This document shows, in pieces, positions 29,797 to 42,763 of a stretch of 64,000 bases of DNA; positions within the stretch are counted from its first letter, which is position 1; each line of letters starts with the position of its first letter. A program made the position numbers and the translations under genes. Under the pieces are notes generated by a model. That model searched no databases. It was not told the DNA's origin and saw nothing but the letters and a program-made list of their open reading frames with translations. The stretch is taken from the NCBI GenBank assembly GCA_020523885.1, contig JAJAPY010000011.1, positions 1-64,000 of the forward strand. Direction: 5' to 3'. The stretch is from Candidatus Liberimonas magnetica. GTDB lineage: Bacteria > Elusimicrobiota > Endomicrobiia > Endomicrobiales > JAFGIL01.

Positions 29797-29825
29797 TTGA
29801 CAAAACAAAAAATATTTGTTATATT
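29797..29825 (+). promoter_or_regulatory. Strong sigma-70-type promoter of the first ammonium operon
   Basis: TTGACA, 17 bases, TATATT. Transcription should begin near 29832, so the first leader stem (29833) is at the very 5' end of the RNA. Confidence 0.75.
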
Positions 29826-29832
29826 AATAATG

Positions 29833-29891
29833 AAGACATAGATGTCTTAGTAGTTGCAACGAAGCTCCCAACATTAGGCGGAGCTTTTTTT
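29833..29891 (+). ncRNA. ANTAR-type leader module 1 with terminator
   Basis: First stem AAGAC/GTCTT (29833-29848) closed by the 6-nt loop ATAGAT. A second, weak stem GC/GC (29856-29865) has loop AACGAA. Both loops have A at position 1 and G at position 4. The 3' side of the second stem is part of the terminator AAGCTCC/GGAGCTT (29862-29886) followed by seven T. Forming stem 2 would block the terminator, which is how ANTAR proteins antiterminate. Confidence 0.65.
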
Positions 29892-29918
29892 ATTTGCCGG
29901 TCATTGACTGGCAAATAA
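29890..29918. promoter_or_regulatory. Near-perfect palindrome in the amt1 leader region
   Basis: TTATTTGCC-g-GTCA-t-TGAC-t-GGCAAATAA, 29 bases with only the central and two flanking bases unpaired. It could be an operator for a dimeric regulator or a further RNA stem; it directly follows terminator 1. Confidence 0.5.
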
Positions 29919-29995
29919 CCCTGTGGTTAGTTTTATTCTATAAACCAGAACAAAACTGCATGGGGTAGATTAAATTTGTTAATTAAGGTTGTATA

Positions 29996-30045
29996 GGACA
30001 ATGAAGCCCTTTTTGTAAGGCAGGATGCCTTTAAAAAGGGTTTTT
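29996..30045 (+). ncRNA. ANTAR-type leader module 2 with terminator
   Basis: Stem GGAC/GCCC (one A-C mismatch; 29996-30009) with the 6-nt loop AATGAA (A1, G4). The terminator CCCTTTTT/AAAAAGGG (30007-30040) plus T-run takes over the 3' side of this stem and has an inner stem AAGGC/GCCTT. No convincing first stem is seen upstream. Confidence 0.5.
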
Positions 30046-30053
30046 CTATTAAT

Positions 30054-30105
30054 AGGCAAAGTAGCCTGTACTAGGCATAGGCGCCCACAAGAAATGTGGG
30101 TTTTT
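30054..30105 (+). ncRNA. ANTAR-type leader module 3 with terminator
   Basis: The clearest dual stem: AGGC-AAAGTA-GCCT (30054-30067), six-base linker, GGC-ATAGGC-GCC (30074-30085). Both 6-nt loops have A1 and G4. The second stem's 3' side overlaps the terminator CCCACA/TGTGGG (30084-30100) followed by a T-run. Spacing and overlap are those known for ANTAR substrates. Confidence 0.72.
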
Positions 30106-30182: not shown

Positions 30183-30881
30183 ATGAAAAAATTAATATGT
30201 TTGTTGTTTTTTACTGGTTACTGGTTACTGGTCACTGTTCACTGTAACGCTACACCGTCTACTCAAATATGGAACCCGTCAACTGATATACAGGGAGTGA
30301 AAACATTTCATCTTGGCATTGATGATTATTTTTCTGTATCAAATAATGATACAAAGCCCTATCAGTTCGCCACTGATGTCAACCTTACCTATGGTTTGGT
30401 AAAGAACCTGGAAGTCGGAATAGATATATTTGAACCTTCCACAGATCCGTTTCAATTTAATGCCAAATACGGGCTGCCGGAAACGGATCAATTGCCGGCC
30501 ATGGCGGTTGGAGCAATGAACTTGGGCACTAAAACCGATGTTACCAACTACAACATATTATATGTAGTTGCCGCAAAGACATTTAAACCACTTCCCCGCT
30601 TGTCGCTTGGATATTATTCCGGTAATGACAAGCTGTTTGTTGATGAGCTTGGCGAAAAAGCAAATACTGGACTGATATTGAGCCTTGATAAACAGTTAAC
30701 CGATAACGTGTGGGCTTGTATTGACTATGCTTCCGGCAAGAGCTGGTACGGCGAAACGAGTTTTGGTTTTTCCTACCTGTTTGCCACGAACACCAGCATA
30801 ATCTTTGGTTATGTAGTTTACAATAATGACAAGATAAACAAAAACAACCAGGTTACAACACAGTTGGATATAAATTTTTAA
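30183..30881 (+). CDS. Predicted outer-membrane beta-barrel protein
   Basis: A 232-residue protein with a signal peptide and then alternating strands typical of small barrels (TYGLVKNLEVGIDIF, LSLGYYSGNDKL, TSFGFSYLFATNTSIIFGYV), ending in LDINF with the terminal Phe expected for an outer-membrane insertion signal. No named family recognised. It is the first gene after the nitrogen-type leader and directly precedes amt1, so it may help small nitrogen compounds cross the outer membrane; that is inference. The hydrophobic core of its signal peptide is encoded by a heptad repeat (30213-30247). Confidence 0.75.
   Translation: MKKLICLLFFTGYWLLVTVHCNATPSTQIWNPSTDIQGVKTFHLGIDDYFSVSNNDTKPYQFATDVNLTYGLVKNLEVGIDIFEPSTDPFQFNAKYGLPETDQLPAMAVGAMNLGTKTDVTNYNILYVVAAKTFKPLPRLSLGYYSGNDKLFVDELGEKANTGLILSLDKQLTDNVWACIDYASGKSWYGETSFGFSYLFATNTSIIFGYVVYNNDKINKNNQVTTQLDINF
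30213..30247 (+). repeat. Heptad array (ACTGGTT) inside a signal-peptide coding region
   Basis: Five exact 7-base steps: ACTGGTT, ACTGGTT, ACTGGTC, ACTGTTC, ACTGTAA. In frame it encodes TGYWLLVTVHCN. The same words in the same order occur in non-coding DNA at 60481-60508 before tRNA-Ala. Confidence 0.85.
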
Positions 30882-30884
30882 AGA

Positions 30885-30957
30885 TAGACAACAGACAACA
30901 GACAGAAGGCATAAAAGCCCTGGTTTTGAGTCTGTGGTCTGAAGTCTCAAGTCTGAT
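30885..30957 (+). repeat. Heptad hairpin, GTCTGNA family (before amt1)
   Basis: Left arm 30885-30908 (CAACAGA-type words), right arm 30928-30957. It lies between the barrel stop and the GGAGG of amt1. Confidence 0.8.
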
Positions 30958-30974: not shown

Positions 30975-32216
30975 ATGGATAATATATTAAAAATCGACAG
31001 TGGCGACACAGCCTGGGTACTGATGTCAACAGCACTTGTTATGCTGATGACACTTCCGGGGCTTGCTTTTTTTTATGGAGGGTTGGTAAGAAAGAAAAAT
31101 GTGCTAAGCATTCTGATGCAATGCGCAATTATGTTATGTGTAATAAGTTTGCAATGGATATTGTTCGGTTATAGCCTTGCATTCGGGCCAAATAAAGGTT
31201 TCTGGGGAGGGTTTCAATGGCTGGGTTTAAACGGTGTAGGCCTTGAACCGTACGCCGATTATGCAGGAACAATCCCGCATCAACTGTTTATGATATTTCA
31301 AGCGATGTTTGCCGTAATAACTCCTGCTTTGATAATAGGCGCATTTGCGGAAAGAATGAAGTTTTCGGCATTCCTTCTATTTAGCATACTATGGGCTACC
31401 TTTGTGTATGACCCTATAGCTCACTGGGTATGGGGTATAGGCGGTTTCTTAAGAAACATGGGCGCCCTTGATTTTGCAGGAGGTACTGTAGTCCATATTA
31501 ATGCCGGTATTGCTGCCATAGTCACAGCCATTGTAATTGGAAGAAGGAAAGGTTACGGGTCGCCAATACCACCGCACAATTTACCGTTTACCATGTTAGG
31601 TGCAGGCCTTTTGTGGTTCGGCTGGTTCGGGTTTAATGCTGGAAGCGCCCTTGCGGCAAACGGTCTTGCAGTCAATGCTTTTATTGTGACGAATACAGCT
31701 TCGGCTGCTGCCGGGCTTATGTGGGCGGTTCTTGAATGGTTCCATAACGGTAAACCTACCACCCTTGGTGTTGCCACAGGCGCTGTTGCCGGCCTTGTTG
31801 CTATAACCCCGGCTTCAGGCTTTGTGGGTTCCATGTCCGCTATCTTAATAGGTTTAGGTGTCAGCCTGATATGTTTTATAATGGTTGCTGTAGCTAAACC
31901 GAAGCTTGGTTATGACGATTCTCTTGACGCTTTCGGCGTCCACGGCATAGGAGGGATTTGGGGTGCCCTTGCTACAGGGCTTTTTGCTTCAAAAGCTGTC
32001 AATCCTGCAGGTGCTGACGGGTTATTTTTTGGAAATCCGGCACAGTTCATCATTCAGCTAAAAGCCGTAATGATAACTATCGCTTACAGTTTCATGGTAA
32101 CCTTATTGATATACAAATTAGTTGACGTATTAATAGGGGTAAGGGCTAAGGAAAAAGAGGAAGTGCTAGGCCTTGATTTAACAGAACACCACGAAGGAGC
32201 GTATACGGTGTTATAA
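30975..32216 (+). CDS. amt: Ammonium transporter 1
   Basis: A 413-residue Amt/MEP/Rh channel with about eleven membrane segments. Hallmarks are LPGLAFFYGGLVRKKN, ITPALIIGAFAERMKF, the pore histidine in GGTVVHINAGIAA and its twin in DAFGVHGIGGIWG. It has no cleavable signal peptide, unlike amt2 (36025-37392), with which it shares long identical blocks; the two are recent duplicates. GGAGG lies upstream. glnB follows, the usual amt-glnK type arrangement that allows PII to close the channel. Confidence 0.96.
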   Translation: MDNILKIDSGDTAWVLMSTALVMLMTLPGLAFFYGGLVRKKNVLSILMQCAIMLCVISLQWILFGYSLAFGPNKGFWGGFQWLGLNGVGLEPYADYAGTIPHQLFMIFQAMFAVITPALIIGAFAERMKFSAFLLFSILWATFVYDPIAHWVWGIGGFLRNMGALDFAGGTVVHINAGIAAIVTAIVIGRRKGYGSPIPPHNLPFTMLGAGLLWFGWFGFNAGSALAANGLAVNAFIVTNTASAAAGLMWAVLEWFHNGKPTTLGVATGAVAGLVAITPASGFVGSMSAILIGLGVSLICFIMVAVAKPKLGYDDSLDAFGVHGIGGIWGALATGLFASKAVNPAGADGLFFGNPAQFIIQLKAVMITIAYSFMVTLLIYKLVDVLIGVRAKEKEEVLGLDLTEHHEGAYTVL

Positions 32217-32221
32217 AAATT

Positions 32222-32300
32222 GTAGGGGCGGGCCTTGCGTCCGCCCGATATAAAATAATATAAAATCATCAAAATGGGCGGACGCAAGGCCCGCCCCTAC
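32222..32300. repeat. Perfect 25-bp inverted repeat (amt1/glnB spacer)
   Basis: GTAGGGGCGGGCCTTGCGTC plus CGCCC (32222-32246) is repeated exactly in reverse complement at 32276-32300, around an AT-rich loop of 29 bases. It is GC-rich and has no 7-base period, so it differs from the heptad elements though it fills the same niche. Confidence 0.85.
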
Positions 32301-32316: not shown

Positions 32317-32658
32317 ATGAAGTTGATTATCGCGATAATCAAGCCGGACAGGCTGGAAGATGTAAAAAAGGAATTGTACAAAAAGGAAGTTAATCTAATT
32401 ACGGTCAATGAAGTGCTTGGCCACGGCAGGCAAAAAGGCGTGACAGAAGTTTACCGCGGGGTTGTGGAAAGCGGGAATCTCTTAAGAAAAGTCAGGCTTG
32501 AGATAGCCGTAAACGAGAACTTTGTGCAGCCTACGATTGATGCCATAGTAAAAGGAGCGCGGACAGGCGAGATAGGTGACGGGAAGATATTTGTCCTAGA
32601 CCTGCCCAGGGTAATAAGGATTAGGACCGGCGAAGAAGGCGGGGAAGCGATAGGATAA
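32317..32658 (+). CDS. glnB: Nitrogen regulatory protein PII
   Basis: A 113-residue PII protein that reads 2-oxoglutarate and adenylates and controls Amt and other nitrogen targets. It has MKLIIAIIKPDRLEDV, the T-loop base GRQKGVTEVYRG, the B-loop TGEIGDGKIFV and RIRTGEEGGEAIG. At position 51, where enteric PII has the uridylylated tyrosine, this protein has glutamate (YRGVVESGN), so control by GlnD-type uridylylation is not possible at that site. GGAGG lies six bases before the start. It follows amt1, so GlnK-like channel gating is likely. Confidence 0.95.
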   Translation: MKLIIAIIKPDRLEDVKKELYKKEVNLITVNEVLGHGRQKGVTEVYRGVVESGNLLRKVRLEIAVNENFVQPTIDAIVKGARTGEIGDGKIFVLDLPRVIRIRTGEEGGEAIG

Positions 32659-32660
32659 AG

Positions 32661-32754
32661 ATAGACAGCAGGCCACAGACTACAGACAATAGGCAAATAC
32701 AAAATAAAAACTGGAGTTTTAAAGTCTGTGGTCTGAAGTCTCAAGTCTGATGTT
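32661..32754 (+). repeat. Heptad hairpin, GTCTGNA family (after glnB)
   Basis: Left arm 32661-32688 and right arm 32722-32754; the right arm reads GTCTGTG, GTCTGAA, GTCTCAA, GTCTGAT, the same word order as at 30928-30957. Confidence 0.8.
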
Positions 32755-35189: not shown

Positions 35190-35879
35190 ATGGATAAAAT
35201 TCTTGTAATAGTAAATAAGGATATCATTTCTGTGCCGGAATTATTGTTGAAGGAGTTCCTGGGCGGAAAATCAGACGAATATGAACCCTCGGGTACAGGA
35301 AAAAATCCGGGAAAGAAGCTTACAATAGCCGGTTACCTTGGCCAAATGCCGGTTATTTTCAGCGAAGATTCAAAAGGTTTGCCGGTTAGTTTAAGCAGTT
35401 CGGCAAGGAAACTGCATTTAAGCGGCACGCATTTTGCGTTTATAAGCACGTCGGGTATCCATCCCAGCGGAGAATGGTTATTTGCATATAACGGCAGGTT
35501 AAAGAACGAAGAGAAAAACATGTACGATCATTTAATGAATTATATTGATGCGCATAAATTTAAGAACCCTCTTTTATATTTAAAGAAAGCTTTTGAAACT
35601 GATGTTATCGCTAAAAGCCCTGCTTCATTGTTTTTGGCCAATAGCAGGTATTTGTTTGTCTTTAAAGGTAAGAACAGCAGGTTAAAGTTTGCTCATCTGG
35701 ATGAAAATTGGATTTTTTGTTCGCAGAATATAAAAGGTATTAAGTGGAGGCCCGTAAAAAATGGGCATCTGATGGTCGTAGACAAGAAAGCTAATTTAAT
35801 AAAAAATTTAAGCGAATTACCTCTTGAGCACATGAATAACTACAGCAGAGTAGTTGTGAAACCTATAAGCTCAAGATAA
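35190..35879 (+). CDS. Degenerate class II glutamine amidotransferase-like protein
   Basis: A 229-residue protein resembling the class II (Ntn) glutaminase fold: GTHFAFISTSGIHPSGEWLF and AYNGRL recall the HxRYATSG...HPF..AHNG pattern, and IKWRPVKNGHLMVVDK recalls the WRPxPPGHLLVV stretch near the end of that domain. The N-terminal nucleophile Cys2 is missing (the protein starts MDKILVIVNK), so glutaminase activity is unlikely. It follows nadE after 16 bases. It may bind glutamine as a sensor, or be decaying. Family assignment is moderately sure, function unknown. Confidence 0.6.
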   Translation: MDKILVIVNKDIISVPELLLKEFLGGKSDEYEPSGTGKNPGKKLTIAGYLGQMPVIFSEDSKGLPVSLSSSARKLHLSGTHFAFISTSGIHPSGEWLFAYNGRLKNEEKNMYDHLMNYIDAHKFKNPLLYLKKAFETDVIAKSPASLFLANSRYLFVFKGKNSRLKFAHLDENWIFCSQNIKGIKWRPVKNGHLMVVDKKANLIKNLSELPLEHMNNYSRVVVKPISSR

Positions 35880-35882
35880 TAA

Positions 35883-35909
35883 TACTGTTTTTAGCAGTAG
35901 TTTTTTTAC
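35883..35909 (+). terminator. Terminator after the nadE operon
   Basis: A short stem TACTG/CAGTA (35883-35899) followed by GTTTTTTT, directly after the stop codon of the preceding gene. Confidence 0.6.
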
Positions 35910-35932
35910 AAAAATAGCTGCAGAAATATAAT
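35905..35932 (+). promoter_or_regulatory. Candidate promoter of amt2
   Basis: TTTACA, 16 bases, TATAAT. It would start the RNA at or just inside the first leader stem at 35936, which is tight; the true start may be slightly upstream or another promoter may be used. Confidence 0.5.
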
Positions 35933-35935
35933 CTA

Positions 35936-35987
35936 GGACAAAGGCGTCCATTAATTTCACTACGAACAAGTGATATGGGCGTTTTTT
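35936..35987 (+). ncRNA. ANTAR-type leader module of amt2 with terminator
   Basis: Stem GGAC/GTCC (35936-35949) with the 6-nt loop AAAGGC (A1, G4). The terminator CGTCCAT/ATGGGCG (35945-35981; inner stem TCACT/AGTGA) followed by six T shares the 3' side of that stem. Only one A1G4 stem is seen here. The start matches module 2 of amt1 (TAGGACAA). Confidence 0.62.
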
Positions 35988-36024: not shown

Positions 36025-37392
36025 ATGAAAAAAATACTACTTGTCCTATTTCTATGTTTACCGTTGTTTTTCAAAGGCATTGCAGTTGCACAAGAGGCGG
36101 CCCAGCCTTTAACTGGAATTGTCCAGGCTTCATCCAGCCCCGGGCCGGTACAATCCGTAACAACAAAGATAGACGGCAGTGACACTGCGTGGGTTTTAAC
36201 TGCAACTGCGTTTGTAATGCTTATGACACTTCCGGGCCTTGCTTTTTTTTACGGCGGCCTTGTAAGGAAAAAAAATGTGTTAAGCGTCTTAATGCAATGC
36301 GCAATGATGCTTTGCGTGATAAGCCTGCAATGGATATTGTTCGGGTACAGCCTTGCCTTCGGGCCGGATAAAGGGTTCTGGGGAGGGTTTAAATGGGCAG
36401 GTTTAAGCGGGGTAGGGTTAGAGCCGTTTGCGGGTTATTCAAGTACCATTCCTCATCAGTTATTTATGATATTTCAGGCTATGTTTGCAGTTATTACACC
36501 TGCTTTAATAATAGGTGCGTTTGCAGAAAGGATGAAGTTCTCTGCGTTTTTACTATTTAGCCTTTTATGGGCAACATTTGTTTATGACCCGATTACTCAT
36601 TGGGTGTGGGGAATAGGCGGTTTTTTAAGGGAAATGGGAGCTCTTGATTTTGCCGGCGGAATAGTTGTTCATATCAATGCAGGTATTGCAGCCATTGTTA
36701 CGGCCCTGGTTATCGGAAGAAGGAAAGGGTACGCTTCACCCACTCCTCCTCATAACCTGCCGTTTACGGTTTTAGGAGCCGGGCTTTTATGGTTTGGCTG
36801 GTTCGGGTTTAATGCAGGCAGCGCCTTATCAGCCAGCGGGCTTGCAGTAAGCGCTTTTATTGTAACTAACACTGCTGCTGCGGCAGCCGGGCTTGTATGG
36901 GCTTTTCTTGAATGGTTCTATGTTAAAAGGCCTACGACTCTGGGTATAGCGACCGGGATGATAGCAGGTCTTGCTACAATAACCCCGGCTTCAGGTTTTG
37001 TAAGTATTAACTCGGCAATTATTATAGGCGCTCTGGCAAGTTTGATTTGTTTTTTTATGGTTGCTTTTATAAAACCAAAATTAGGTTATGACGATTCGCT
37101 TGATGCCTTCGGTGTCCACGGGGTAGGCGGGATTGCAGGGACTCTGGCTACAGGGCTTTTTGCGTCAAAAGCGATTAATCCGCAGGGAGCTGACGGTTTA
37201 TTTTTCGGGAATCCCGGTTTGTTTTTTATACAGCTCAAGGCGGTATTAATAACCATAGGGTACAGTTTTGCCGCTACTTTGGCGATATATAAACTTGTTG
37301 ATGTGTTGATAGGTGTAAGGGCAAAAGAAAAAGAGGAAGTAATAGGTCTTGATTTAACTGAACATCATGAAGGGGCCTATACGGTGTTGTAA
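36025..37392 (+). CDS. amt: Ammonium transporter 2, with signal peptide
   Basis: A 455-residue Amt channel. Residues 1-24 form a cleavable signal peptide (ILLVLFLCLPLFFKGIAVAQ) as in many Gram-negative Amt proteins, then a linker to about residue 50 and a core nearly identical to amt1: LPGLAFFYGGLVRKKN, AFAERMKF, GGIVVHINAGIAA and DAFGVHGVGGIAG, with the same C terminus DLTEHHEGAYTVL for PII contact. GGAG precedes the start. It has its own leader with an A1G4 stem and terminator. Confidence 0.95.
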   Translation: MKKILLVLFLCLPLFFKGIAVAQEAAQPLTGIVQASSSPGPVQSVTTKIDGSDTAWVLTATAFVMLMTLPGLAFFYGGLVRKKNVLSVLMQCAMMLCVISLQWILFGYSLAFGPDKGFWGGFKWAGLSGVGLEPFAGYSSTIPHQLFMIFQAMFAVITPALIIGAFAERMKFSAFLLFSLLWATFVYDPITHWVWGIGGFLREMGALDFAGGIVVHINAGIAAIVTALVIGRRKGYASPTPPHNLPFTVLGAGLLWFGWFGFNAGSALSASGLAVSAFIVTNTAAAAAGLVWAFLEWFYVKRPTTLGIATGMIAGLATITPASGFVSINSAIIIGALASLICFFMVAFIKPKLGYDDSLDAFGVHGVGGIAGTLATGLFASKAINPQGADGLFFGNPGLFFIQLKAVLITIGYSFAATLAIYKLVDVLIGVRAKEKEEVIGLDLTEHHEGAYTVL

Positions 37393-37533: not shown

Positions 37534-37561
37534 CTTGTGTCAATGCATATCAGTAATCACA

Positions 37562-37575
37562 GGACAACGACGTCC
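37562..37575 (+). ncRNA. A1G4 stem in the glnA leader
   Basis: GGAC-AACGAC-GTCC, a perfect 4-bp stem with a 6-nt loop (A1, G4), almost the same as the amt2 stem. A weaker TCTGC/GCAGA stem follows at 37577-37613 but lacks a T-run, so a terminator is not certain and the regulatory outcome may differ. Confidence 0.5.
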
Positions 37576-37661
37576 TTCTGCCGATTATAAAATGTATTGC
37601 AGATGTTTCAGATAAAAATATGCCCTAACTTGATTTCAAGATCAAATCGGAGGAAACAGCA

Positions 37662-39764
37662 ATGAAAACCAAGGTTAATGAAGGGAAAATTCAGACTATA
37701 GCTGACATTTATGGAGAAAACGTGTTCGGGCTCAAGACCATGAGCAAGTATCTTTCAAAAAAAACATACGATTCCCTGCGCGCTACTATAAAAGAAGGCC
37801 GGTCTCTTGACCCGCAGATAGCAGACGAAGTCGCGGAGGCGATGAAGAAATGGGCGCTTTCAAAAGGAGCAACACACTTTACCCACTGGTTCCAGCCTTT
37901 GACCGGCGGTACTGCAGAAAAACACGATTCTTTCATAGACCCGGACGGGGAAGGCGGAGTAACACTAAAATTTAAAGGCAAAGAGCTTATACAGGGAGAA
38001 CCGGATGCATCGAGTTTCCCTTCAGGCGGCATTCGTGCGACTTTTGAAGCAAGAGGCTATACCGCCTGGGACCCGACAAGCCCGGCTTTCATAAAAGAAG
38101 GCGAGGATTATTCCACACTTTGCATACCGACAGCGTTCTATTCATATACAGGGGAGGCCCTGGATAAAAAGACGCCTCTTCTGCGCTCCCTTCAGGCTTT
38201 GTCGAAACAAGTCTGCAGGATGGCGGAGCTGTTTGGGATAGATGCAAAGAACAAGAAAGCCTATGCGACTCTCGGGCCTGAACAGGAATATTTCCTGATA
38301 GATAAAGCTTTTTATGATTCAAGGATAGACCTGTTGCAGACAGGCAGGACGCTTTTTGGCAGAAAACCTGCGAAGCACCAGCAGCTGGAAGACCATTATT
38401 TCGGAGCCATCAAACAAAGGATCATGGCTTTTATGGAAGACCTGGACCGCGAACTCTGGAAGCTGGGCATCCCTTCTAAAACCAGGCATAACGAAGTTTG
38501 TCCTGCCCAGTTTGAAATGGCCCCTGTGTTCGAAGAATTAAACCTTGCTGTAGACCATAACATGATGGTCATGGAAGTCTTACGGCAGGTAGCGGACAGG
38601 CACGGGCTTGTCTGCCTCTTGCACGAGAAACCTTTTGCAGGAGTAAACGGTTCAGGCAAACATAACAACTGGTCTGTGGCAGGCCCTGACGGCAAGAACT
38701 GGCTTACACCCGGCGATAATCCAAGGGAAAACGCAAAATTCTTAACAGTAATATGCGCCTTGATGAAAGCGATAGATACTCACGCAGGCCTTTTGCGCGC
38801 CGCAGTAGCATCCGCAGGGAACGACCACAGGCTGGGAGCTAACGAAGCACCGCCTGCGATACTTTCCATTTTTTTAGGAGACCAGCTTACTGAAATAATA
38901 GAACATATAGAAAAAGGAAAAACAGGCGGGGAAGCAAAAGATAAAGAGTTCCTGGAGTTAGGAGTATCGTCACTCCCTAAACTTGCCAAAGATGTTACAG
39001 ACAGGAACAGGACGTCCCCTTTTGCTTTTACAGGCAACAAGTTCGAGTTCCGGGCAGTGGGCTCAAACCAGAGCTGCTCGACGGCAAATATCGTTTTAAA
39101 TACGATAGTGGCGGAAGCTCTCGATGAGATATGCACGCAGCTTGAGTCCGATATAAAAGCTAAAAAGGACTTTAACGTATCATTGCAAAAGATATTGCAG
39201 TCTCTAGTCAAAAAACATAAGAGAATAATATTTAACGGCGACAACTATACCGAAGAATGGCACAAGGAAGCGGAAAAAAGAGGGCTTCCTAATTTAAAGA
39301 ACACGCCGGAATCGTTAAAAGAGATAATCAAGGAATCTTCTCTGGCGATTTTTGAAAAGCACAAAGTGCTTACAAGAAGGGAAACGCATTCCCGCTACGA
39401 GATTTATAAAGAGCAGTATGAAAAAATAGTCAATATAGAAGCTCTTGTAGCTCTTGATATGGCCAAGACGCTTATAATCCCGGCGGTGTACAGGTACCAG
39501 AAAGAGCTCTCTAAAACGGTCATCAACAGTGAAAAGTGCAGCTGCCCGGCCTCTAACCTTAAAGAACTGCTCGGACAGATAGCTAAACTTGCTGAAGATA
39601 CGCTGTCGGACATAAAAGAACTCGAAGGGTCATTAGCCGGCGAACCGAAAGAGAAGCTTGAAGCGATGAATAAACTCCGCTTGAGCGTTGACCAGCTTGA
39701 AGGCCTTGTGCCAAAAGAGTTCTGGCCTCTGGCTTCCTACACGTCAATGATGTTTGTGATGTAA
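37662..39764 (+). CDS. glnN: Glutamine synthetase type III
   Basis: A 700-residue GSIII enzyme, much longer than GSI/GSII. Family features are [19 protein letters not shown] at the N terminus, [51 protein letters not shown] with metal-binding glutamates, and [20 protein letters not shown]. It fixes ammonium into glutamine with ATP. GGAGG lies eight bases upstream. It is placed after amt2 and before gltBD, so transport and the GS-GOGAT cycle are neighbours. Confidence 0.95.
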
Positions 39765-39769
39765 GAAAA

Positions 39770-39853
39770 TCAGACTACAGACCACAGACGACAGACTACA
39801 GATTGATTGTTATAATTTAGTCTATAGTCTGTAGTCTGAAGTCTTTAATCTGA
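39770..39853 (+). repeat. Heptad hairpin, GTCTGNA family (after glnA)
   Basis: Left arm 39770-39803 (CAGACTA, CAGACCA, CAGACGA, CAGACTA words) and right arm 39818-39853; the last word provides TGAGG before the next start. Confidence 0.85.
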
Positions 39854-39859
39854 GGTTCC

Positions 39860-42478: not shown

Positions 42479-42483
42479 CAGAA

Positions 42484-42763
42484 AGACAGACATGAGACAT
42501 CCGACAGCAGACATCAGACCTCGAACAACCGATTTTGGGTTGAGGGATACTAAAAGATAAATGAAAACACGTATAGAGTTAGCATACAAACTAAATTATA
42601 TAGATTCCGTTAAATTTGAAAAAATAGAAAAATTGTGCGATGACACATCTAAAATGTTATATGGCTTAATTGATTATATTGAAAAAGAATGTTCTCTGTA
42701 GTCTTTAGTCAGAAGTCTGTTGTCTGAGGTCTGTAGTCTGTGGTCGGAAGTCTGTAGTCTGAT
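42484..42763 (+). repeat. Enlarged heptad hairpin (GTCTGNA) carrying an ORF remnant
   Basis: Left arm 42484-42521: words ending in GAC at 7-base steps. Right arm 42694-42763: about nine GTCTGTA-type words. Instead of a loop of 10-30 bases the arms are 170 bases apart and enclose the four-helix-bundle fragment at 42561-42701, whose stop codon lies inside the right arm. A small stem CAACC/GGTTG is at 42525-42540. Confidence 0.8.
42561..42701 (+). pseudogene. Four-helix-bundle (23S intervening-sequence type) protein, C-terminal remnant
   Basis: A 46-residue frame starting MKTRIELAYKLNYI and ending SKMLYGLIDYIEK. This matches the end of the four-helix-bundle/S23 family, whose members (about 115-130 residues) close with the helix pattern KMLxGLIxYL. 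A stop codon sits directly before the ATG and the first two helices are missing, so it is a remnant. In 23S rRNA intervening sequences such ORFs lie inside stem-loops; here the same arrangement is found between protein genes. Confidence 0.65.

Follow-up and report, generated by a model that had tools for sequence, protein, structure and literature searches.

The NasR/nasF system of Klebsiella and the AmiR/amiE system of Pseudomonas are examples of ANTAR antitermination of nitrogen operons, as we propose here for an ammonium operon; their signals are nitrate or amide, and each system relies on a single attenuator. In Geobacter, GnfL/GnfR reportedly controls nitrogen-fixation and ammonium genes (Ueki and Lovley 2010); this is an ANTAR response regulator acting on the leaders of nitrogen genes, the kind of target that we propose here. 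In the eut system of Enterococcus faecalis, both hairpins of the leader RNA are needed for antitermination by the REC-ANTAR protein EutV, and a single hexaloop is the minimal binding site (PMC8934654). ANTAR RNAs have also been reported before amt, P-II and glutamine synthetase genes (Ramesh 2012, PMC3369931), and for Desulfotomaculum acetoxidans an ANTAR nitrogen regulon of 13 elements in six transcription units has been predicted (PMC3369931). The published definition of an ANTAR RNA demands two hairpins (PMC3369931, PMC8164766), the upstream P1 and the downstream P2, and the regulons of Ramesh 2012 were found with a two-hairpin model, by which single-hairpin elements are not findable. Elusimicrobia are unmentioned in the main text of that study (PMC3369931), and a literature search found no relevant paper that links ANTAR with Elusimicrobia or with pyrG. 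Control of amt and glutamine synthetase genes by ANTAR antitermination is of a known kind (PMC3369931); the one-hairpin, promoter-proximal and often tandem variant described below looks new, new by its anatomy and with a function that we infer.

The window analysed here is the whole stretch of 64,000 nucleotides from Candidatus Liberimonas magnetica. The leader of its ammonium operon very probably consists of three serial ANTAR-controlled transcription attenuators, and contains the following features.

29797..29825, plus strand: sigma-70-type promoter TTGACA-17-TATATT (-35 element 29797-29802, spacer 17, -10 element 29820-29825)
29833..29848, plus strand: module 1 P1 hairpin, AAGAC[ATAGAT]GTCTT; the same hairpin is found in the related genome G001 (L047)
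29856..29865, plus strand: module 1 P2 hairpin, GC[AACGAA]GC, weak with 2 bp only; the linker from P1 is 7 nt
29861..29890, plus strand: terminator T1, its 5′ arm overlapping the P2 3′ arm; -9.2 versus -0.7 kcal/mol for P2
29996..30009, plus strand: module 2 hairpin, GGAC[AATGAA]GCCC, single, without P1 upstream, imperfect with an A.C mismatch
30006..30045, plus strand: terminator T2, its 5′ arm being the 3′ arm of the module 2 hairpin; -18.8 versus -0.5 kcal/mol for the hairpin
30052..30069, plus strand: module 3 P1 hairpin, ATAGGC[AAAGTA]GCCTGT
30074..30085, plus strand: module 3 P2 hairpin, GGC[ATAGGC]GCC
30083..30105, plus strand: terminator T3, its 5′ arm being the P2 3′ arm; -10.2 versus -3.8 kcal/mol for the hairpin

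The preliminary description of this leader had claimed three terminators in series, each overlapped by an A1/G4 hairpin. Base-by-base re-reading, folding energies and shuffles confirmed this arrangement, and the re-reading found the coordinates given for the leader to be correct. A1 and G4 are present in all five hexaloops, and a U tract is present at each of T1, T2 and T3. The promoter, for which no equally good match occurred in 200 shuffles, places the first hexaloop stem 7 nt 3′ of the -10 element (which ends at 29825). At least three terminators were found in 0 of 400 dinucleotide-preserving shuffles of the leader, and even one hexaloop-terminator overlap in only 1 of 400, versus the three observed. 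A search against Rfam matched no curated RNA family at 29797-30105. The series of terminators could in principle be a constitutive insulator or polarity element whose loops arose by chance, and the strength of the terminators and the proximity of the upstream gene, which ends 5 nt before the -35 element, would suit such a role. This explanation is extremely improbable, however, given that the promoter stands upstream of the terminators and that chance is excluded by the Monte Carlo shuffles, by conservation in G001 and by the loop statistics. A strong hairpin, TTTGCCGGTC-ATT-GACTGGCAAA, without a U tract, also lies between T1 and T2 at 29891-29915.

The predicted energies strongly favour the terminators over the competing hairpins, so that polymerase should normally terminate and the hairpins should persist only with the help of a protein. 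Indeed, because the module 2 hairpin has almost no stability (-0.5 kcal/mol) and the P2 of module 1 only 2 bp, both would need protein to form at all.

Compared with the eut leaders, the ammonium leader shares A1/G4 hexaloops, a conserved closing pair and the overlap of hairpin and terminator, and, as in the eut system, several attenuators serve one pathway. Modules 1 and 3 conform to the dual motif: both P1 and P2 have A1/G4 loops, and the linker lies within the 5-12 nt of the Ramesh 2012 definition, being 7 nt in each (in module 3 when counted from the 3-bp core of P1, and 4 nt if that stem is extended to 6 bp); the P2 of module 1 has 2 bp versus a search minimum of 3. The targets, amt, P-II and type III glutamine synthetase, belong to nitrogen metabolism as in that definition, and the genome encodes an ANTAR protein. 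In contrast to the eut system, three attenuators stand in one leader here, most modules both here and in relatives are without P1, and the sensor is GAF-GAF, without a receiver. Within the window leader only modules 1 and 3 are dual hexaloops; module 2 is a single hairpin, which is the commoner form in relatives. The predicted regulons of the D. acetoxidans type have the same targets (ammonium transporters, P-II, glutamine and glutamate synthesis) and likewise multiple elements per unit.

Further copies of the element, absent from the preliminary description, were found in the same window in the amt2 (35936-35987) and glnN (37561-37576) leaders. The genes concerned and these elements are as follows.

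30183..30881, plus strand: first operon gene, a 232-aa protein without a Pfam family that looks like an outer-membrane protein
30975..32216, plus strand: amt1, ammonium transporter (PF00909, E 9e-129)
32317..32658, plus strand: glnB-like P-II protein (PF00543, E 3e-25)
35905..35932, plus strand: amt2 promoter TTTACA-16-TATAAT, 3 nt 5′ of the hairpin stem
35936..35949, plus strand: single hairpin of the amt2 leader, GGAC[AAAGGC]GTCC, scoring 39.5 bits in the covariance model, the top of the genome
35942..35987, plus strand: amt2 leader terminator, overlapping the hairpin loop and 3′ arm; -15.4 versus -5.5 kcal/mol for the hairpin
36025..37392, plus strand: amt2, second ammonium transporter, 85% identical to amt1
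37561..37576, plus strand: glnN leader hairpin, AGGAC[AACGAC]GTCCT, followed by a degenerate terminator of -4.8 kcal/mol
37662..39764, plus strand: glnN, glutamine synthetase type III (PF12437, E 5e-79)

Neither the amt2 nor the glnN leader, like module 2, has a P1 upstream, which places all three outside the dual-hexaloop definition. Bases are shared with the terminator at T1, T2, T3 and amt2; at glnN the overlap is unconvincing. Judged by their sequences, module 2 and these two leaders look as if they act like ANTAR attenuators, yet fall outside the dual definition. The glnN terminator has decayed in the window and is intact in two relatives (L129, L133); the hairpin of this leader (37561-37612) may be bound without control of termination, or may be a relic.

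Several minor features of this region can be added. The gene for the 232-aa protein (30183-30881) is conserved and precedes amt in several related families too, and its product is possibly a porin for the ammonium operon. A 229-aa protein at 35190-35879 has no Pfam match and shares weak similarity (26% over 87 aa, E 2e-10) with a fragment in locus L128 that looks like a class-II amidotransferase and stands 3′ of two ANTAR-type modules. Degenerate 7-base repeats of the AGTCTGT and ACAGACT types occupy the intergenic gaps 30879-30957, 32656-32751, 39765-39854 and 42481-42763, in both orientations, making long imperfect inverted repeats, and a perfect 25-nt inverted repeat (GTAGGGGCGGGCC...) lies between amt1 and glnB at 32222-32300.

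The preliminary description had called for a search of the genome for an ANTAR regulator. One such protein was found in the 3.39 Mb and 29 contigs of the assembly, on contig 2 at position 215679 (78.5 bits against a cut-off of 27.3). It is 407 aa long with the domain order GAF-GAF-ANTAR; its ANTAR part matches the structures of Rv1626 (1s8n), EutV (6wsh, 6ww6) and NasR (4akk), and the first of its two GAF domains matches those of PtsP-type proteins. Both ANTAR proteins examined in the related family f6 (n=2) are REC-ANTAR. The own genome gave only a weak match for nifH (27.8 bits), and a nitrogenase regulon is therefore left out of this case.

On the observed anatomy, overlap, conservation, covariation, co-occurrence with ANTAR and gene context, we infer the following course of events. 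RNA polymerase would start just behind the -10 element (29825) and by default stop at T1, T2 or T3. Active GAF-GAF-ANTAR protein would bind the A1/G4 hexaloops as they emerge and hold the 3′ arm of the hairpin, which would then be unavailable as the 5′ arm of the terminator, and polymerase would read through into orf30183-amt1-glnB and beyond. The classical P1-P2 pair would be at work in modules 1 and 3 and a single hairpin in module 2 and amt2, and amt2 and glnN in the window would belong to the same regulon. The GAF domains would read the signal, and the gene content suggests that the switch is on under nitrogen or glutamine limitation. Stacked terminators would lower the basal level and widen the dynamic range, and serial copies may give the steep or AND-like response that the preliminary description had proposed.

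Conservation in relatives agrees with this scheme. G001, a genome of the same family, likewise has three terminators in series, and its module 2 is nearly identical, GGAC[AACGAA]GCCC with a CCCUUUUU terminator. In a set of 50 amt upstream regions from the same order, chosen by protein similarity only, the ANTAR-positive genomes gave 27 hexaloop hairpins with terminator overlap, 21 of them having both A1 and G4. An A1/G4 hairpin was found at 17/32 amt loci in ANTAR-positive versus 1/18 in ANTAR-negative genomes (kinship ignored); for example, genus g7 is without ANTAR and without elements. The ANTAR reading of the preliminary description hung on an ANTAR protein in the genome and on conserved loops in homologous leaders, and it gained support on both counts. 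A1/G4 hairpins without a terminator were also seen near the start of amt or its operon in G003 (L041, just upstream of 11475) and G004 (L042, just upstream of 11005, minus strand; L043, just upstream of 7979), perhaps for translational control, as reported for mycobacterial ANTAR RNAs.

To extend the comparison we used a covariance model of hairpin and U tract built from 21 modules, with seeds partly chosen for A1/G4 loops. The three best matches in the own genome all lie in the window, and all three are seed sequences. Those of the weaker matches that were checked are mostly in coding sequence; three (L089-L091) were rejected for lying in open frames and one (L092) for lacking a hexaloop, and the matches in ANTAR-negative G006 and G016 were rejected as coding or unrelated sequence. 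Non-seed matches in 60 relatives precede glutamine and nitrogen genes and track the presence of ANTAR, in line with the covariance search suggested beforehand as a check. They stand upstream of type III and type I glutamine synthetase, archaeal-type glutamate synthase, nifH, diaminopimelate epimerase and a purF-like amidotransferase, and ANTAR genes or glnA-ANTAR operons are also found 3′ of them. Non-seed scores were higher in ANTAR-positive than in ANTAR-negative genomes (Mann-Whitney p 4e-6, kinship ignored). Across 120 genomes of the phylum, matches at E <= 0.01 occurred in 18/42 ANTAR-positive versus 2/78 ANTAR-negative genomes (p 4e-8), and among non-seed genomes in 11/35 versus 2/78 (p 3e-5), kinship being ignored in both. 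Outside the order the figures were 5/23 versus about 0/40 (p 0.005; a hand count in which 40 is approximate and kinship is ignored), with matches upstream of glnA (L147), amt (L148, L149) and gdhA (L150); the amt element of L149 stands directly 3′ of a GAF-ANTAR gene. In 79 aligned matches the C-G closing pair is invariant, and 76 double-change cells in the stem, versus 26 in shuffles, indicate covariation in an alignment that was fitted to the structure.

To broaden this search beyond the phylum, 84,980 genomes were scanned with a pattern of DNA letters only, consisting of a promoter, then GGACANNGNNGTCC at 3-30 nt from the -10 element, then T5 at a distance of 10-40 nt. The scan returned 63 loci, mainly in Clostridia, Omnitrophota and Negativicutes (Selenomonas and Anaerovibrio), against a chance expectation of about 1.5 by a rough uniform-base estimate. 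About two thirds of these loci have pyrG, purF, carA, glnA, gdhA, gltD or amt-glnB no more than 1.6 kb downstream, most within 250 nt; in Omnitrophota gltD lies about 1 kb downstream of the element, and another gene may stand between. ANTAR is encoded in 23 of the 27 scan genomes checked, as compared to about 25% of genomes (Ramesh 2012; p 6e-11). The other four are two Saccharibacteria and one Acidobacteria, whose matches look like chance, and one Clostridia with a purF leader. An Rfam search of 12 of the scan loci found no known family at the elements. The bare GGACANNGNNGTCC was rejected as a specific marker, since a reversed control pattern is equally frequent; in the own genome it has four matches, two in leaders of the window and two in apparent coding sequence.

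These data also bear on whether some other RNA-binding regulator recognises the hairpins, with the link to ANTAR arising indirectly from a shared nitrogen lifestyle or phylogeny. The co-occurrence tests ignore kinship, and ANTAR binding at this locus is itself a prediction, both of which leave room for such a regulator. We nevertheless regard it as very unlikely: the ligand described for ANTAR is an A1/G4 hexaloop whose closing pair is conserved (PMC3369931, PMC8934654), some elements have an ANTAR gene as their target or neighbour (L081, L080, L140, L149), and ANTAR is encoded in those 23 of 27 genomes that were found by a DNA pattern alone.

Single and dual hairpins were also compared. A genuine upstream P1 is present in 4 of 64 modules, namely modules 1 and 3 of the window, module 1 of G001 and module 2 of G007, as compared to 0.4 expected from shuffles; the criterion had given 5 of 64, of which one, a terminator misread as P1, was removed. 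The P2 of genuine duals has 2-3 bp, and the stem of most other modules 4-6 bp. Among promoter-proximal modules with a good promoter match, the first hairpin starts 3-10 nt behind the -10 element in 7/26 and 19-31 nt behind it in 19/26. Where P1 is missing, the reason is often that the hairpin begins very close to the predicted transcript start, with little or no room upstream. Almost all modules might seem strictly single, but this view is qualified by A1/G4 hexaloops at terminator apices, found outside f6 in 7/22 module terminators versus 16/193 others (p 0.004, post hoc) and within f6 in 0/34 module terminators. In the apex-loop modules outside f6 the terminator breaks the first hairpin and the second stands in both folds, which is the reverse of EutV. 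When neighbours no more than 260 nt apart are counted as tandem, two copies occur in 16 and three in 3 of 50 leaders with modules; the tandem arrangement noted beforehand is real and recurs, in 19/50.

Since EutV needs both hairpins, a single one is mechanistically only a putative switch. It might be that only the dual modules 1 and 3 respond to ANTAR, and that the single-hairpin leaders, like module 2, are ordinary terminators or degenerate relics whose loops were kept by descent; the weak stem of module 2 would agree with this, as would the need of EutV, in antitermination in vitro, for a correctly spaced P1 and P2 (PMC8934654, PMC3369931). We consider this unlikely, because single modules throughout the phylum retain A1, G4, the C-G closure and a stem that covaries, stand 5′ of nitrogen genes and track ANTAR presence, and because the same layout recurs in ANTAR-encoding Clostridia, Negativicutes and Omnitrophota. 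Moreover, f6 genomes have almost only single hairpins, and relics would leave the f6 ANTAR proteins without targets.

The aggregate data, read at the level of sequence, suggest that a one-hairpin form of nitrogen switch is common and has been overlooked. We think it probable that there is a large, overlooked class of single-hexaloop ANTAR attenuators, in which a single C[ANNGNN]G hairpin close to or at the transcript 5′ end, often with two or three copies in series, has a loop and 3′ arm that double as the terminator 5′ arm, and which controls amt-glnB, glnA/glnN, gdhA, gltD, pyrG, purF, carA and nifH in Elusimicrobiota, Omnitrophota, Clostridia and Negativicutes. In the families of the order other than f6, about a third of these terminators would carry a second A1/G4 hexaloop at the apex, an inverted dual with P1 rather than P2 as the switch. 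The accepted two-hairpin search model would miss one-hairpin elements. If one hairpin suffices, the ANTAR regulon is larger than listed and includes the amidotransferase genes of nucleotide synthesis pyrG, purF and carA in addition to nitrogen uptake, and the question raised by the EutV structure, whether a single hexaloop is a working switch, can be put to a direct test in short natural leaders. Similarly, the naturally occurring tandem copies could show how attenuators in series shape a response.

Two further observations concern the scan loci. In L170, L199, L217, L222, L224 and other Omnitrophota, a TTAGGCA(AA) stretch recurs 3′ of the hairpin-terminator and may start a second module. In the amt-glnB leaders of Selenomonas and Anaerovibrio (L221, L223), a second single-hairpin motif lies directly 3′ of the first terminator, forming tandem arrays outside Elusimicrobiota.
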